DNA from: Methanoculleus receptaculi
Lineage (GTDB): Archaea; Halobacteriota; Methanomicrobia; Methanomicrobiales; Methanoculleaceae
Length of the DNA: 64,000 nt
Direction: 5' to 3'
Assembly: GCF_033472595.1 (NCBI RefSeq)
Contig: NZ_CP137642.1
Location: 992,001-1,056,000 of the forward strand
Both the position numbers and the translations under genes were made by a program. The notes below the pieces were generated by a model. The model did not search any database. It had not been told where the DNA came from and worked only from the letters and a program-made list of their open reading frames with translations. Of the stretch, positions 5,442 through 27,310 are shown piece by piece. How positions within the stretch are numbered: the stretch's first letter is position 1; each line of letters begins with the position of its first letter.

Positions 5442-5542
5442 GTATCGAATGGTGCTGCTCTGCTCTGCAGCCGGAGGTCATAAGACCGGTAGCCGTCCCC
5501 CCCCCCGGTTTGATAACGTCTCTCTGGAGGGATGGACGCTGG

Positions 5543-19592: not shown

Positions 19593-20636
19593 CTACAAAA
19601 TCAGATCCCACGACAACGGCGTCCCTCTCGTTATCTTCCCTGCTGCCCTTCTACCGAGCACCACGGGCAGATACTTCGGCGGCAGTCCATACCCCGGCCT
19701 GATCGAGCGCACATTCTCCTCCGTAAACACCTCCCCGGCCTCGATATCTCTCACGGCGAAGAGTGATCGCCGAAAGACCCTGCTTGCCTTTTCGTGCTCG
19801 GAGACCTCATAGCAGACCGTGCCCAGCGCTTTTTCCGTCTCCCTCACCGCATCCACCATCGCCTTAAACTCGTGCGGCTCAAGCGAGAATGCGCTGTCCG
19901 GCCCCGGGTCCGCGCGGGAAAGCGTGAAGTGCTTCTCAATGATGCATGCACCGAGGGCGACCGCCGCCACCGAGGTGGCTATACCGAGGGTGTGGTCCGA
20001 CAACCCGACCGGAGCCCCGAATGCCGCGGCAAGGTGGGGGATGGTCCTCAGGTTCATCTCTTCCGGCGGCGCGGGGTATGCACTTGTGCACTTCAACAGC
20101 GCGATCTGGTCATTGCCGGCCTCCCGGATGGTATGGACGGCCTCGTCGATCTCCGCGAGGGTTGCCATGCCTGTGGAGAGGATGATCGGTTTCCCCTGCC
20201 CGGCGATGTAGCGGATGAGGGGGAGGTCAACGATCTCGAAGGAGGCGATCTTGTAGGCGGGAACACCCAGATTCTCGAGGAAGTCGACCGCGCTCCTGTC
20301 AAATGGTGTCGAGAAGCAGATCATACCGAGTTCCCGCGCCCTCTCCATGATCGGTGCGTGCCACTCCCATGGAGTGTGGGCGAGGGTGTAGAGGTCGTGG
20401 AGACTCTTCCCTTTCCATGGACTCTGTTCATCTTCGATGAAGAACTCACCTTCGTTGATGTCGAGGGTCATGGTGTCGGCCGTGTATGTCTGAAGTTTAA
20501 GTGCCTGAGCACCCGCTTTCGCGGCCGCCTCAACGATCTCCAGTGCCTTGTCAAGTGACTGATTATGGTTCCCGGACATCTCTGCAATGATAAGGGGGGG
20601 AGCACCCGGGTCAATCGTGTGATGTGCGATTTTCAT
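19593..20636 (-). CDS. pseI: pseudaminic acid synthase PseI
   Basis: 347 residues from ATG 20636, preceded by GAGG at a good distance. NeuB-family barrel: AEMSGNHNQSLDKALEIVEA at the N-terminus, KLQTYTADTMT, CFSTPFDRSAVDFLE, KIASFEIVDLPLI, and LSDHTLGIATSVAAVALGA followed by EKHFTLSR. The C-terminal SAF/antifreeze-like domain starts near residue 285 (RSLFAVRDIEAGE). The AEMSGNHN and TLSR..GPDSAFSLEP signatures favour PseI over sialic or legionaminic acid synthases. It condenses the 2,4-diacetamido altrose with phosphoenolpyruvate to give pseudaminic acid. Last gene of the leftward pse operon, 27 bases after the fusion gene. Confidence 0.9.
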   Translation of the reverse strand: MKIAHHTIDPGAPPLIIAEMSGNHNQSLDKALEIVEAAAKAGAQALKLQTYTADTMTLDINEGEFFIEDEQSPWKGKSLHDLYTLAHTPWEWHAPIMERARELGMICFSTPFDRSAVDFLENLGVPAYKIASFEIVDLPLIRYIAGQGKPIILSTGMATLAEIDEAVHTIREAGNDQIALLKCTSAYPAPPEEMNLRTIPHLAAAFGAPVGLSDHTLGIATSVAAVALGACIIEKHFTLSRADPGPDSAFSLEPHEFKAMVDAVRETEKALGTVCYEVSEHEKASRVFRRSLFAVRDIEAGEVFTEENVRSIRPGYGLPPKYLPVVLGRRAAGKITRGTPLSWDLIL

Positions 20637-20668
20637 ATACATCCTCAGCTCTTCATGGTCTCTGGTAT

Positions 20669-22879
20669 TCAGTCATCTTCTTGTTTCTCAATCCGAAGAA
20701 TGAAACGCTTTCCCTTGAATTCAAACCACGCCGGGTATCTAATATTATCAACTGTGCGGAGAAGATTGAATTGTTCCTGGACCGACTTTTTGAGGTCGAT
20801 GGCGCTATCTTCAGGGCGGCGCCGGGCGTAGAACGTCGGCTCGCCTTCTTGCGCGATTCCCGTTGTAATAACCTCTGGATATTCCCTCACAAAGGATCTG
20901 CACAAATCCATTGTCACCTGCATCACTGCATGCCTGAGCTCATCGATCAGTTCCACACCCGAGAACTGAATTACCACCTGTTTGTAAATCGGCCCGCTGT
21001 CGACCGCCTCCGCAGCTTCAAACAACGTGACCGGGATCTGATTCTTGCCCTCAAGAATCTGCCAAGTCATGGGAGACCATCCCCTGCCCCGTGGCAAATC
21101 ACTTGCGTGAACGACGAGGTTATTCTTATGCCGCTCCAATAGATCGGGACCAACAATTTTCCCATAACTCAGGTAGAAGCATAGGTCTCCACGTGACAAT
21201 TCATCAGCCTCATGGGCCCATCTCACCTCATGCCCATCTGCCAACCAGTCCAGGAGTAGTTCTGGGATGTACATATGGTTCCAGCTATCTGCATCAGAGC
21301 ACACGCTGATACGCAATCCCCCCCCGTCCATCGGGTATGTCCATCGGGTATGTCCATCGGGTATGGTATCGAAGTCAAGCGACTCGAAAATTTTGCGCGA
21401 AGGCAGATTCTCAGGTTTCACCCGTCCAAGAACGAGCGCACCAGGATATTCAGAACGCATCTTTAGAAGAGCGGCTTTAAGCAGCGGTCGAGCCAGACCT
21501 CTTTTACGGAACTGAGATGCAAGCGAATAACTGATCTCCCAGGCCGTATCCCGCCTCTCAAACCGCACCTGCCCTATGGGAATTCCATCCTCGGTCTCAA
21601 CAACATAGAGACGACATCCCTCCAGATCGCGGAGCCGGCTATAGAACCACCGGCGATGATCCTCTGCAGAGATGGGGTCAGACGAGAACGAGTTTCGCCG
21701 TGTCTCCGGGTCGTTTGCCCAGGTGAGGAGGAGTGCTTCATCGGAGAGGCGGGCATGGCGCACCTGAAGCGGCGTTTCTGCAGTTATGGTTAAAACCGCA
21801 CCGACACGATCCACACCTTTCCCGTCTACAGTGGCCCGGCAGCGCAGTGACCATCCTCTGTCAATGCCCCCTTCGATCACCTCGGCCAGAACCTGCCTGA
21901 CACTCAGTTCAGAGACTTCATCTTTATGCCCCAGCCAGCGCACTAATCCCAGTCCGTGTAGTTCAGCCGCAATCAGCCGCTGGTTCTCCGCCAGCGTCAC
22001 AACAAGTGTAGGAAGGCCGAGGCACAGGCGCTCCCAACTGGTCGTCCCGGCCGCACCGATGGCAAGATCCGCTCTCGCCATCAGCGGTGCCAGGGTCGGG
22101 AGGTTGCCATGCAGGTGAATGTTGGCATGTCTCACTGCTTGAGCTCGGATCCCCGGAGCATAAGGACTACTGTCAGAGATCACGACATCAACATCGATAT
22201 CGGGGCGATTCAGGCTCAGGAAAGCCGCGAGAGCGCGACCAGTCAGGTTGTCGCGGTCAGCCCCGCCAAATGAGATGAGGATACGATGGACCGGGCCTTC
22301 CCGCGGTGGGATGCGGTCGTGCAGTTCGGCATAAATCGGCTGCAAGAGGGCGTATTCCGGTCCCAACAGCAGGCGACAATCTTCCGGCACCTTACCGGCA
22401 TAGCGGGTCTGCATGTCTGCAAAAAGGTTCTGGTCAAGCAACAGATCGCAATCATGTGCCCGGTCGGCGAGGTCGTCGATCACAAAGATGCGGTCTACCA
22501 ATGGCCGGAGAGCCTCTTCCCAGCGGTAATCAAGCCCGTAATGGTCCACCACCAGCCATGTGGGTTTGATGCCCAGAGTCCTGATGACAACGCCGGTTTG
22601 CCCGGCGTCTTCCTGCCATGCTGCTCCGAGCCAGGCAGCATGGGCCGGGGTTGCATCGGCCTCAAAATCACTCTCTGTCGCAGGGAGGCGGTGAACTGTA
22701 AAACCCTGTTCCTCGATCAGGTCACAAAGGTTGCCCTCATGCTCGCGGCAGATAAACGATACGCCGACACCTTTTCCGGCCAGAGCGTTTGCCAGGGTGA
22801 GGCAACGCATGACGTGACCGGTGCCGATGGCCGGCGAGGCATCGGTGCGGATGACCACCAGATCGTGCATTTGGCTCAT
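20669..22879 (-). CDS. three-domain fusion: PseG hydrolase, GNAT N-acetyltransferase (PseH-like), sugar N-formyltransferase-like
   Basis: 736 residues. Domain 1 (about 5-345): PseG, which releases UDP from the 2,4-diacetamido altrose sugar, with RTDASPAIGTGHVMRCL holding the catalytic His 22, and a later SFGGADRDNL donor motif. Domain 2 (about 368-505): GNAT fold with QVRHARLSDEALLLTWANDP and SQFRKRGLARPLLKAALL, as in PseH, which acetylates the 4-amino group. Domain 3 (about 515-736): formyltransferase fold with VVHASDLPRGRGWSPMTWQI, EAAEAVDSGPIY and a C-terminal RTVDNIRYPAWFEFKGKRF, usually a stand-alone protein. Domains 2 and 3 meet at a 13-bp triplicate and a G8 run. ATG 22879 overlaps the pseF stop (ATGA). 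Confidence 0.85.
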   Translation of the reverse strand: MSQMHDLVVIRTDASPAIGTGHVMRCLTLANALAGKGVGVSFICREHEGNLCDLIEEQGFTVHRLPATESDFEADATPAHAAWLGAAWQEDAGQTGVVIRTLGIKPTWLVVDHYGLDYRWEEALRPLVDRIFVIDDLADRAHDCDLLLDQNLFADMQTRYAGKVPEDCRLLLGPEYALLQPIYAELHDRIPPREGPVHRILISFGGADRDNLTGRALAAFLSLNRPDIDVDVVISDSSPYAPGIRAQAVRHANIHLHGNLPTLAPLMARADLAIGAAGTTSWERLCLGLPTLVVTLAENQRLIAAELHGLGLVRWLGHKDEVSELSVRQVLAEVIEGGIDRGWSLRCRATVDGKGVDRVGAVLTITAETPLQVRHARLSDEALLLTWANDPETRRNSFSSDPISAEDHRRWFYSRLRDLEGCRLYVVETEDGIPIGQVRFERRDTAWEISYSLASQFRKRGLARPLLKAALLKMRSEYPGALVLGRVKPENLPSRKIFESLDFDTIPDGHTRWTYPMDGGGLRISVCSDADSWNHMYIPELLLDWLADGHEVRWAHEADELSRGDLCFYLSYGKIVGPDLLERHKNNLVVHASDLPRGRGWSPMTWQILEGKNQIPVTLFEAAEAVDSGPIYKQVVIQFSGVELIDELRHAVMQVTMDLCRSFVREYPEVITTGIAQEGEPTFYARRRPEDSAIDLKKSVQEQFNLLRTVDNIRYPAWFEFKGKRFILRIEKQEDD
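21318..21364. repeat. 13-bp x3 perfect tandem repeat plus C8/G8 run inside the fusion gene
   Basis: GTCCATCGGGTAT is repeated three times without error at 21326-21364, directly next to eight C at 21318-21325 (G8 on the coding strand). Each 13-base unit shifts the frame when gained or lost; three copies keep the acetyltransferase and formyltransferase domains in one frame. The coding strand also places an ATG (MDGGGLRISV) just before domain 3, so a separate formyltransferase could be started here. Confidence 0.9.
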
Positions 22880-23607
22880 TCGATCGCTTTTTGCTTGATA
22901 TCACTGTTGATCTTTACAATTTCTGGATGCTGTTCCAGATACCGGAGAGCATCCATCCAGGTAAAGTGGTCGTTCCCGAAATGCTCATACACCGTCTGAA
23001 TAAACTCAAGGTCTTCAGGCGTGTCGAGCGTCCATCGATGGTGCGAGAGATCTACATCATTGGCAACACGATGAAGCCGGAACTTTCCAGGATTCCGGTA
23101 TATGTAGGGGGTCACATGTTCTCGCAGTGCAGGGTTGTTGTCCTCTCTCCAAGCACGTTCAAGGGCTGCAAAGGTCATCACCTCGACATCAAGGCCACGC
23201 GGGAATGTCCTTGGCGGAAGAGTGTTTGAGACGTAGTCAACCTTCTCCCTGAGATCCAGAAACACTTCTATCACTTTATCTATAATTTCTGGATCGATCA
23301 TAGGACAATCAGAGGTGATGCGAACGACCACATTTGCCTCAAACGCCCGTGCAGCCTGGTAATACCGATCAAGAAGGTCGTTCTCGCTCCCCCGGAAACA
23401 GTGCCATCCTTCCTCCTCACAGAGTGAGGCGATCAGGTCGTCCTCCTGTCTGGTGGTGGTTGCGATCACAACCTCATCGATACATTTTGCGCGCCGGATC
23501 CGGTTAACGTCCCGGGTCAGCACCGGTTTCCCGAGAAGGTCTTTCATAACCTTGCCAGGCAATCGCGTACTTCCCATCCTTGCCTGAACTACCGCCACCA
23601 CACGCAT
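22876..23607 (-). CDS. pseF: pseudaminic acid cytidylyltransferase PseF-like (SpsF family)
   Basis: 243 residues from ATG 23607 (MRVVAVVQARMGSTRLPGKV, the nucleotide-binding signature). Downstream: VVIATTTRQEDDLI, RGSENDLLDRYY, RITSDCPMIDPEII and the C-terminal HHRWTLDTPEDLEFI, all typical of SpsF-type cytidylyltransferases that serve as PseF in many Pse clusters. Reaction: CTP plus pseudaminic acid to CMP-pseudaminic acid, the glycosyl donor. GTG 23619 directly follows the pseC stop and is an alternative start. Its stop overlaps the start of the fusion gene by ATGA, indicating coupled translation. Confidence 0.85.
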   Translation of the reverse strand: MRVVAVVQARMGSTRLPGKVMKDLLGKPVLTRDVNRIRRAKCIDEVVIATTTRQEDDLIASLCEEEGWHCFRGSENDLLDRYYQAARAFEANVVVRITSDCPMIDPEIIDKVIEVFLDLREKVDYVSNTLPPRTFPRGLDVEVMTFAALERAWREDNNPALREHVTPYIYRNPGKFRLHRVANDVDLSHHRWTLDTPEDLEFIQTVYEHFGNDHFTWMDALRYLEQHPEIVKINSDIKQKAIE

Positions 23608-23619
23608 ATAAAATACCAC

Positions 23620-24768
23620 TCACGCGGAGATTCCAAGGTCAGACTCTGCCTTATGCAACTGTTCAGAGACATACTCCACATCCTCATCTTTCATACCGGG
23701 GTAGAGCGGCAGCGTCAGTGTTCTGTTGAATACATCCTCGGTGCTCGGAAAAGCATTGGCGTCCTGGGGGTAATGCTTCTGATAATAACTGAATTTATAG
23801 ATCGGGATATAATGAACGTTGACACCGACTCCCCGTTCCTTCAGGTAAGAAAACAGGATGTTTCGCTCAACCCCGTTAACCAGAACCGTGTAGAGGTGCC
23901 AGCCGTGATTAACCCCATCCATTGTCTCAGGCAGATCAAGCCATGCCAGGTCTGAGAGAGACCTCCCGTATAATGCTGCAATCTCGTTTCTTCGCTTGAT
24001 GAAAGAGTCGATCTTCTTCAACTGAGACACACCCAGTGCTGCCTGGATATCGGTCATCCGGTAGTTACGGCCAAGAAGTTTCATGTCGTATCCCCATGAT
24101 GCTCCTTCACCGAACAGATCACCTACATCCCGGGTGATCCCATGACTCCGGAGCATCCTGAGTTTAGCATCGAGATCCGGATCGTCGGTCACCACCGCCC
24201 CTCCCTCCCCGGTGGTTATGGGTTTGACAGGGTGGAAACTGAAGACGGTCATATCAGCGAAGGTGCCGATCTTGCGGCCTTTGTAGGAGGCGCCAAACGC
24301 ATGGCATGCATCCTCAATCAGCCGAAGATCATACTCCCCGGCAATCTCCCGGATCTCGTCGATCGCACACGGCTGCCCCGCGTAATCAACGTAGATTATC
24401 GCGCGGGTTTTCGGGCCGATCCTCCTCCTTATCTCATCCGGGTGGATATTCCTCGTTATAGGGTCGATATCAGCAAAGATCGGAATATGACCGTTGTAGA
24501 GGACAGCATTACTCGTGGCGGCAAAGGTGAAGGGGGTTGTAATGATCTCACTCCCTTTCGGGAGGCCAAGGGCCTGGACCGCGATATCCAGAGCGCTCGT
24601 GCCGCTGTTCACCGCGACCGCGTGCCGTGCGCCGACGTATCCGGCAAGATCCGCCTCAAACAGATCGACGGTCGGCCCCGTCGTGAGCCAGTCGCCCTTC
24701 AGAATCTCTACGACAGATCGGACATCATCATCATCGATGGATTGATGCCCATACGGAATGAACTTCAT
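23620..24768 (-). CDS. pseC: PseC, UDP-4-amino-4,6-dideoxy-N-acetyl-altrosamine transaminase
   Basis: 382 residues from ATG 24768 (MKFIPYGHQSIDDDDVRSVV), chosen because TAAGG lies just upstream; ATG 24780 is possible. DegT/DnrJ/EryC1 aminotransferase: AVNSGTSALDIAVQALGL near residue 55, EDACHAFGASYKGRKIG near 155, and the PLP lysine region TVFSFHPVKPITTGEGGAVV near 180. The N-terminal IPYGHQSI is typical of PseC. It uses glutamate and PLP to aminate the 4-keto sugar made by PseB. Second gene of the operon, 24 bases after pseB. Confidence 0.9.
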   Translation of the reverse strand: MKFIPYGHQSIDDDDVRSVVEILKGDWLTTGPTVDLFEADLAGYVGARHAVAVNSGTSALDIAVQALGLPKGSEIITTPFTFAATSNAVLYNGHIPIFADIDPITRNIHPDEIRRRIGPKTRAIIYVDYAGQPCAIDEIREIAGEYDLRLIEDACHAFGASYKGRKIGTFADMTVFSFHPVKPITTGEGGAVVTDDPDLDAKLRMLRSHGITRDVGDLFGEGASWGYDMKLLGRNYRMTDIQAALGVSQLKKIDSFIKRRNEIAALYGRSLSDLAWLDLPETMDGVNHGWHLYTVLVNGVERNILFSYLKERGVGVNVHYIPIYKFSYYQKHYPQDANAFPSTEDVFNRTLTLPLYPGMKDEDVEYVSEQLHKAESDLGISA

Positions 24769-24792
24769 CGGCCTTACCATATTGCGGGTATT

Positions 24793-25767
24793 CTACTGGA
24801 GACCTATCATCGAGATCAGTTCATCAGCGTCAAGCCATGCCGTATTGTTCTCGCTCGAGTAGCGGAACCCCTCAGGCAGGGGTTTTCCCTCATGCCCATC
24901 GTTCTTCTGCCAGAACCGTAACTCCGGCTCTATGATAAAATAGTCCCCCATATCCTTCGAGTGCCGGGCCTCATCTTCGGTGAGGAGGACCTCATGGAGT
25001 TTCTCGCCCGGCCGGATACCGATGATCTCGACCTCACAATCGGGGGCGATGACTCTTGCAAGATCGGTTATTCTCATGCTGGGGATCTTGGGAACGAATA
25101 TCTCTCCGCCTTTCATCGTCTCGATGCACCGGGCGACGAAACGCGCGCCCTGTTCCAGCGTCAGCCAGAACCTCGTCATGCGCTCGTCGGTTATTGTAAC
25201 CCGGCCCTGTTTCCTCTGCTCCAGGAAGAGCGGGACGATACTCCCACGACTTCCAACCACATTACCGTAGCGGGTACAGGCAAACCGCGTCTTCCTCCCA
25301 CCGGCATAAGCATTCCCCTGTACAAAGAGTTTCTCCGCGACCATCTTGGTCGCACCGTAGAGGTTGACCGGGTGCACCGCCTTGTCTGTGCTCAACGCCA
25401 TGACCCTCTCAACGCCGTTATCGATGGACGCATTGATGACGTTGGCTGCACCGTCGATGTTCGTCTTTACGGCTTCTATAGGGTTGTATTCTGCTGTGGG
25501 AACCTGTTTCAGCGCGGCAGCGTGGACAACGATATCGACATCGTTCATTGCGCGGTAAAGACGGTCTTTATCCCTCACATCGCCGATTAAAAAACGGAGA
25601 CGCTCATCCTGATTTTTTTGTTGCATCTCCCACTGGAGCAACTCACCCCGCGAATAGATGCGGACGCTGTCGGGGTTCCACTCCTCGAGCAGCAATGATG
25701 TAAACATTTTCCCAAACGAACCTGTGCCGCCCGTGACAAGAATGGTTTTTCCGTCAAAATATGACAT
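24793..25767 (-). CDS. pseB: PseB, UDP-N-acetylglucosamine 4,6-dehydratase (inverting)
   Basis: 324 residues. Extended SDR: ILVTGGTGSFGKMFTSLLL at the N-terminus, RDKDRLYRAM, VVHAAALKQVPTAEYNP, and the active site LSTDKAVHPVNLYGATK where the Thr-Asp-Lys and Tyr-x3-Lys are the inverting-dehydratase hallmarks. The C-terminal PGEKLHEVLLTEDEA is also family-typical. It starts the Pse pathway from UDP-GlcNAc and inverts C5. ATG 25767 has GAAGGTG as ribosome site. First gene of the leftward pse operon; a 7+7 inverted repeat lies 20 bases upstream. Confidence 0.93.
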   Translation of the reverse strand: MSYFDGKTILVTGGTGSFGKMFTSLLLEEWNPDSVRIYSRGELLQWEMQQKNQDERLRFLIGDVRDKDRLYRAMNDVDIVVHAAALKQVPTAEYNPIEAVKTNIDGAANVINASIDNGVERVMALSTDKAVHPVNLYGATKMVAEKLFVQGNAYAGGRKTRFACTRYGNVVGSRGSIVPLFLEQRKQGRVTITDERMTRFWLTLEQGARFVARCIETMKGGEIFVPKIPSMRITDLARVIAPDCEVEIIGIRPGEKLHEVLLTEDEARHSKDMGDYFIIEPELRFWQKNDGHEGKPLPEGFRYSSENNTAWLDADELISMIGLQ

Positions 25768-25852: not shown

Positions 25853-27310
25853 TCAGATCCGGAGCAGACCCTTAAAAAACAGGATCTCTTCCTTCTTGAA
25901 CCCCCGCAATATGAACAATCCTGCAGTGTAGACAAGCGCAGAGATGATCACCAGTAAAAGGATGCTCACCAGCCCACCAGATATCCGAGATCCTCCGATA
26001 ACAACAACCCCCCCCATGATCGCTGCTGCGATAATGCACTTCAATATAAAAGCAGCGTTTAGATCGAATACAAGATACTTAAACGAATAATACGTCGATA
26101 AGAGAAACGCCAGAGAGTACGCAAGCAGGGTCGTAACCGCTGCTCCAATAATCCCGAATATGGGGACGAATATGATATTCAACCCCAGGTTAAGGATCGC
26201 CGCCACAATCCATATCGTCCCGCTGATGCCGGTCTTCTTTTCAAGCACCAGAATTTGCATTATAACTGCATAAGATCCAAATAACAATCCAGACAATGCA
26301 GTGAATGGCGTTATCAGGTAGCCCTGCTCTGCAATCTCCGGCGTTGAGAGGATCGTCAATAAGGGTCTGGAGAGCAGCGACAGCCCCACGACTGAGGGTA
26401 TCGCCAGCGCAAGGAAATACTTCATGGAGTATGACAGGATGGTTTTGACGTCGTTGAGGTTGCCGTCATCATAATGTTTCGAGAGCACCGCCGGCAGCAT
26501 GAACGAGAGCGGCGCGATGAACATATTGACAATATTTCCCAGGGTGTAGCCCGGCGAGTAGTAGCCGACGTATGCCGTCCCGAGAAACAGGGCAATCACA
26601 TACCGGTCGCTTGAGTTCACCACCCAGCTGGAGAGGTTCCCCGGCACCGTGGGAAGACCAAAAGAGAGGTACTCCCGCAGGTGCCTGAACTTCGGGACGG
26701 CGACCCCGATCTCGGAGACGATGAGGATGCTCATGATGATGAGCAGGACCACATCGGTGACCAACAGCCCGATCGTGGCACCGAGGATACCGTAGCCGGC
26801 AAGGACGAGCGTACAGACCAGGGTCAACTGCAGGCAGGTCTTGAAGAAGGTGAGAGAGGAGTACCGTTTTATCTGCTGAAACGTCCTGAAATAGTTATAC
26901 TGGATCTCGTTCATGCACTCCAGAAAAACTATCGCCGCAAGGACCTGAATTATGGCAACCCGGTTATCGAAGAGCGCGGCGGCTATGGGTTCTGCCAGGA
27001 TGAAGAGGGCAAGCGAGGCGAGCCCGGCGGTCACGACGGTGATGCCCACGATCGAGTAGTAGCCCTCCTGGATCTCCTCCCGCGATCTTGCTCCCGCGAG
27101 GAACCTGACCATCGTGTAGGGGAGGCCAAGCATCACCACCGCGGGGACGAGGCCGATGGTCACGGTGACCTGGACATACGTCCCATATTCTTCGATGGGC
27201 AGGGTCTTGGTGAGGATCGGGAGGAGGATGAGGCCGCTCAGGCTGATGAGGAGGTTGGTTGCGCCGATGAGGCCTATGCGCCGGGCGAATTGGTGATATT
27301 CCTGCAACAA
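25853..27310 (-). CDS. Wzx-type oligosaccharide flippase
   Basis: 485 residues, about 12-14 membrane helices, MATE/polysaccharide-export superfamily. N-terminal GLIGATNLLISLSGLILLPI is typical, followed by a first cytoplasmic YGTYVQV and a central SFGLPTVPGNLSSWVVNSSD loop with charged residues. It is expected to translocate a lipid-linked oligosaccharide across the cytoplasmic membrane. It lies upstream of pseB in the same direction; the 85-base gap holds the pse promoter, so it may be a separate unit or read through. Its minus-strand start is ATG or TTG near 27310, after which a 211-base AT-rich divergent promoter region begins. Confidence 0.9.
   Translation of the reverse strand: MLQEYHQFARRIGLIGATNLLISLSGLILLPILTKTLPIEEYGTYVQVTVTIGLVPAVVMLGLPYTMVRFLAGARSREEIQEGYYSIVGITVVTAGLASLALFILAEPIAAALFDNRVAIIQVLAAIVFLECMNEIQYNYFRTFQQIKRYSSLTFFKTCLQLTLVCTLVLAGYGILGATIGLLVTDVVLLIIMSILIVSEIGVAVPKFRHLREYLSFGLPTVPGNLSSWVVNSSDRYVIALFLGTAYVGYYSPGYTLGNIVNMFIAPLSFMLPAVLSKHYDDGNLNDVKTILSYSMKYFLALAIPSVVGLSLLSRPLLTILSTPEIAEQGYLITPFTALSGLLFGSYAVIMQILVLEKKTGISGTIWIVAAILNLGLNIIFVPIFGIIGAAVTTLLAYSLAFLLSTYYSFKYLVFDLNAAFILKCIIAAAIMGGVVVIGGSRISGGLVSILLLVIISALVYTAGLFILRGFKKEEILFFKGLLRI

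Follow-up and report, generated by a model that had tools for sequence, protein, structure and literature searches.

A candidate slipped-strand frame switch where two pseudaminic acid genes overlap in the methanogen Methanoculleus receptaculi

Pseudaminic acid genes and a tandem repeat in the fused reading frame

The window analysed here is a 64-kb stretch (64,000 nucleotides) of the Methanoculleus receptaculi genome. By annotation it encodes a full pseudaminic acid set (pseB, C, F, GH-FT and I, from profile matches), in which a single reading frame joins PseG to a GNAT acetyltransferase and a domain of the formyltransferase fold (FT) (Table 1). The PseG domain scores 301.5 bits against TIGR03590, well above the curated cut-off of 153.6. 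FT scores 36 bits against PF00551 (gathering cut-off 26.1); the match begins at residue 564 and the first conserved FT residues lie at residue 523 of the fused protein. The acetyltransferase is PseH-like by position; its score against the PseH profile TIGR03585 is 22 bits, below the cut-off of 93, and the best structural matches of an unfused homologue are generic GNAT proteins.

Table 1. Features of the pseudaminic acid locus (window coordinates).
Feature	Position	Strand	Basis
Fused ORF, PseG + GNAT acetyltransferase + FT, 736 aa	20669..22879	-	ORF list, profile matches
PseG domain (UDP-2,4-diacetamido-2,4,6-trideoxy-beta-L-altropyranose hydrolase)	21962..22858	-	TIGR03590, residues 8-306
GNAT N-acetyltransferase domain, PseH-like by position	21371..21766	-	PF13302, 62 bits, residues 372-503
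13-bp tandem repeat x3.08, copies 100% identical, ATG in each copy	21326..21365	-	TRF; exact whole-genome scan
G8 homopolymer (C8 on + strand), adjoins 13-bp array	21318..21325	-	sequence; relatives have homologous G8-G12 runs
Dormant alternative frame, ATT GCG TAT CAG CGT GTG CTC TGA = IAYQRVL*	21294..21317	-	native acetyltransferase tail + stop
Overlap in FT frame, RISVCSD	21293..21313	-	synonymous constraint
FT domain	20672..21313	-	PF00551; ArnA, Fmt, PseJ in PDB
pseI, pseudaminic acid synthase	19593..20642	-	TIGR03586, 511 bits, above cut-off
pseF-like cytidylyltransferase	22876..23619	-	PF02348; TIGR03584 35 bits, below cut-off
pseC aminotransferase	23620..24780	-	TIGR03588, 457 bits, above cut-off
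pseB UDP-GlcNAc 4,6-dehydratase (inverting)	24793..25767	-	TIGR03589, 514 bits, above cut-off

A sequence-only reading of this DNA had placed three perfect copies of a 13-base unit beside a G8 tract between the acetyltransferase and formyltransferase domains. This is confirmed at 21318-21365, with the two domains assigned by PF13302 and PF00551 and both repeats lying inside ORF 20669-22879. The unit (GTCCATCGGGTAT on the plus strand, ATACCCGATGGAC in the coding sense) has a length that breaks the frame. When the whole genome (1,980,381 bp) was scanned exactly, this proved to be the sole perfect array within a predicted gene that has about three copies or more of a unit 6 bp or longer and not divisible by three. 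Other arrays that would break a frame comprise 11-16-bp stretches built of 4-5-bp units and, outside genes, a single 74-bp CRISPR duplication (a repeat-spacer unit in 3.5 perfect copies at genome positions 817788-818045). Large CRISPR arrays with two differing repeats, beginning GTTGCAGTCCTTGTTTTGCTGG and GTCGCACCCTTCACGGGTGCG, occupy genome positions 807844-838780, outside the window.

The G8 tract is not remarkable by itself: the genome has 33 G/C runs of eight or more, many of them within ordinary genes. A dinucleotide model predicts more than this, and the order-1 expectation, tried as a test of G/C-run enrichment, returned depletion instead. One of the longest G/C runs of the genome, a C10 at window positions 5497-5506, falls inside or close to a small ORF prediction (genome 997402-997794). 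Another tract, C8 at 26008-26015, falls in the 3' part of a polysaccharide flippase-like ORF (25853-27310, minus strand) and is probably not a switch, because the ORF reads through it (as Gly-Gly) to an ordinary-looking C-terminus.

Reading frames were enumerated for one to five units combined with G6 to G10. Three units with G8, as assembled, give the fused protein. From this state one additional G or unit leads to the native acetyltransferase end IAYQRVL*, and loss of one G or unit leads into the third frame with an unrelated tail; a 13-bp unit counts as +1 modulo 3 and has the same frame effect as one G. One unit with G8 also gives the native end and is presumably the ancestral layout. At G8 the final copy of the repeat contributes an ATG (21329..21331, minus strand) that stays in the FT frame at any copy number. 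That start had been described as just downstream of the repeat; it lies within the last copy (21331-21329) and upstream of the G-run, whereas a TTG (21316-21314) comes after the run. Since G8 always keeps this ATG in the FT frame, this strain might also make FT on its own, and a change in unit number by itself, at G8, might leave FT unsilenced.

Frame of the junction in related genomes

Of 232 genomes of the order that were searched, nine besides this one have a close homologue. Each species is represented by the assembled sequence of one genome, several of them draft; the relatives are few and not independent, and the differences described below are differences between species. Alignment of the junctions reveals an overlap of two genes: the acetyltransferase ends with (V/I)xYQRLL and TGA in one frame, and FT begins with RISVCSD in the other frame of the same DNA. 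The sequence-only reading overlooked this overlap, and with it an unfused state that restores the C-terminal strand and stop codon of the acetyltransferase.

The window and two relatives (G025 and G050) are in the fused state. In the other seven, three Methanospirillum genomes (G197, G208 and G199) together with G046, G006, G160 and G081, the acetyltransferase has its native end, a tail matching IAYQRVL* being the real C-terminus in every one. Both states occur within the genus of the window, where G025 is likewise fused and G006 native, and also in the sister species G050 (fused) and G046 (native; support 100/100), so that the junction frame, judged from these sequences, has changed at least twice.

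Pure G-runs are found at the homologous site in seven genomes from three families, namely G8 in the window, G9 in G025, G12 in G050, G10 in both G197 and G208, and G8 in G199 and G046; six of these have an uninterrupted FT, the seventh being G046. Runs of this kind persist at the junction across 60-79% protein identity. The run is interrupted or absent in G006, G160 and G081. FT is deleted in G006, frameshifted in G160, absent from G081 and interrupted in G046, and all four of these genomes, which lack a working FT, have the native acetyltransferase frame. The 13-bp array is present only in this genome among the relatives compared. Homopolymers are prone to error, and the G-run or the repeat might be a product of faulty assembly or base calling; we regard this as very improbable, since the independent genome G025 is fused with G9, pure runs occupy this site in other genomes, and the repeat with G8 spans 47 bp, which fits within one read.

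Two contig ends of G046 (L012 3300-3409 and L031) each hold part of the FT gene and have matching inverted termini, CAAAAGTGGCGG / CCGCCACTTTTGG, which suggests disruption by an insertion sequence. The FT homologue of G160 (L010 3000-3650) is a pseudogene with several frameshifts, and the upstream pseG-GNAT gene is intact. An exact search for the overlap motif across the order returned G050 alone, the spacing demanded being too strict; a scan of viral contigs for the motif gave no match. Plasmid matches to FT were set aside: they are only distant ArnA-like or polysaccharide formyltransferases (28-32% identity), and the two loci inspected are not pse loci.

The seven-codon overlap is strongly constrained at synonymous codons in both frames. 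Synonymous codons agree in 86 of 92 comparisons, a level that none of 178 windows attains; the figure for the remainder of FT is 58%. Among the three fused genomes alone the count is 17 of 19, as against 54%, a level reached by two of 171 windows. The single variable synonymous site (GTG/GTC) preserves Val or Leu in the other frame, and only 0.15% of synonymous spellings of RISVCSD keep the unused acetyltransferase tail and stop. The fused genomes thus keep a tail and a stop codon that are unused in the assembled frame. This conservation does not depend on the present assembly, a further point against an artefact.

The dual-frame conservation also bears on a simpler account, in which the G-run is a weak spot where insertions and deletions have fused or separated the overlapping genes in one species or another over evolution, each state then being stable. 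The differences in tract length are indeed between species, with one tract per species, and FT has been lost several times (in G006, G160, G046 and possibly G081), as a dispensable gene would be. In a stable old fusion, however, the unused tail and stop should decay, yet none of the three fused genomes has lost them; pure G-runs have outlasted the protein divergence noted above, whereas the decayed loci have interrupted runs; and in this genome a fresh 13-bp array has been added at the same spot. Such drift is a possibility to be taken seriously, and we think it improbable.

In the three Methanospirillum genomes FT is out of frame and its frame contains no ATG or GTG start, so that FT there seems to depend on fusion or on recoding; a distant TTG is found in the FT frame in two of them, and G199 has none. 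Under programmed recoding, slippage of the ribosome or of RNA polymerase along the G-run would let one allele yield both a short acetyltransferase and the fused protein, and the length of the DNA tract would then be no switch. It would explain how a conserved FT is reached in these genomes, and a slippery G-run is conserved at the junction. Conserved -1 frameshifting in archaeal magnesium chelatase genes provides a precedent (PMC3711429), and translationally coupled overlapping genes and programmed frameshift genes likewise have overlapping frames at a slippery run. Here, in contrast, sister species differ at the level of DNA in how the two frames are related, and three genomes have an outright fusion. 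Recoding needs neither of these and has no role for the 13-bp array; we judge it unlikely.

The acetyltransferase and FT domains

In an AlphaFold model of an unfused homologue the tail GIAYQRL forms the last β-strand of the GNAT fold (pLDDT 91, confident), and fusion should therefore remove this strand from the acetyltransferase. The model of the fused GNAT-FT protein (pLDDT 58 at the junction and in FT) is usable for the GNAT core only and is too uncertain to indicate a loss of acetyltransferase function.

The sequence relatives of FT with structures in the PDB include PseJ (6ci2, 6ci4; E about 2e-5) and the formyltransferase domain of ArnA (7e-14). Compared with these, FT is compact, is fused behind PseG and GNAT, and carries Val at the position of the catalytic Asn. 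The catalytic residues of ArnA are N102 and H104 (an Asn-x-His motif) and D140. The His and Asp are conserved in FT, and the Asn is replaced by Val in six of six homologues; because of this replacement, formyl transfer by FT is not assured from its sequence. In pseudaminic acid synthesis PseJ formylates the same amine that PseH acetylates, a relation that suggests acetyl and formyl as alternatives at this locus.

A possible switch and known phase-variable systems

The presence of both states in relatives, with both reading frames kept, suggests a switch in surface sugars such as is described chiefly in bacteria. In our view the best explanation, favoured by a modest margin over its being wrong, is slipped-strand frame switching where the two pseudaminic acid genes overlap. 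Gain or loss of one G, or of one 13-bp unit in this strain, would shift the end of pseG-GNAT among three states. In the fused state the acetyltransferase would continue into FT and lose its own last strand; in the native state it would end in ..YQRVL* with FT no longer joined; in the third frame it would acquire an unrelated tail. Switching would make or withhold FT, the fused state presumably being FT-ON, and the changes in length would have to be frequent and reversible within one lineage. A possible outcome is altered N-acylation (acetyl versus formyl) of pseudaminic acid on surface glycans.

A more specific form of this proposal, which we hold only tentatively and consider rather doubtful, is that each slip exchanges the acetyltransferase for FT on the same amine and that this toggle has been selected across several methanogen genera. 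The native frame would complete the acetyltransferase and give N-acetyl pseudaminic acid, and the fused frame would drop the strand and gain a formyltransferase.

The contingency-locus architecture put forward by the sequence-only reading holds and gains support from the comparison: the G-run, a coding-region tract that, like the three-unit array, shifts the frame when its length changes, recurs in relatives of three families with differing lengths (G8-G12) and frames, both frames being constrained. The 13-bp repeat is confined to this genome. MutS and MutL are encoded in the genome and should damp slippage of single Gs, and G8 is short, which counts against switching. Loops of 13 bases generally escape mismatch repair.

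In the phase-variable poly-G genes of Campylobacter, Neisseria and Helicobacter a coding G-run in a surface-sugar gene shifts frame through insertions and deletions, as the G-run would here in a putative surface-sugar gene, and among the genes listed as phase-variable in Campylobacter is one with a formyltransferase domain and G(9-10) (PMC6321876). The present locus differs from these in belonging to an archaeon, in having its G-run in a dual-coding overlap with a 13-bp array alongside, and in that the end of one enzyme would be exchanged for a whole second domain instead of a gene simply being turned off; its switching is a candidate. Repeat-driven phase variation has been studied almost exclusively in bacteria, and a 2025 review describes its spread into archaea as still to be explored (PMC11868660). 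If correct, a dual-coding switch conserved among methanogen genes for surface sugars would bring phase variation into archaea, where the driver would not be a mammalian immune system; viruses are an obvious candidate. In the available excerpt of a report on Halorubrum sp. PV6 the pathway is that of legionaminic acid and phase variation is not mentioned; the S-layer glycoprotein of this organism is described there as carrying an N-formylated nonulosonic acid, an indication that archaea do place such sugars on surface glycoproteins (PMC6137143).
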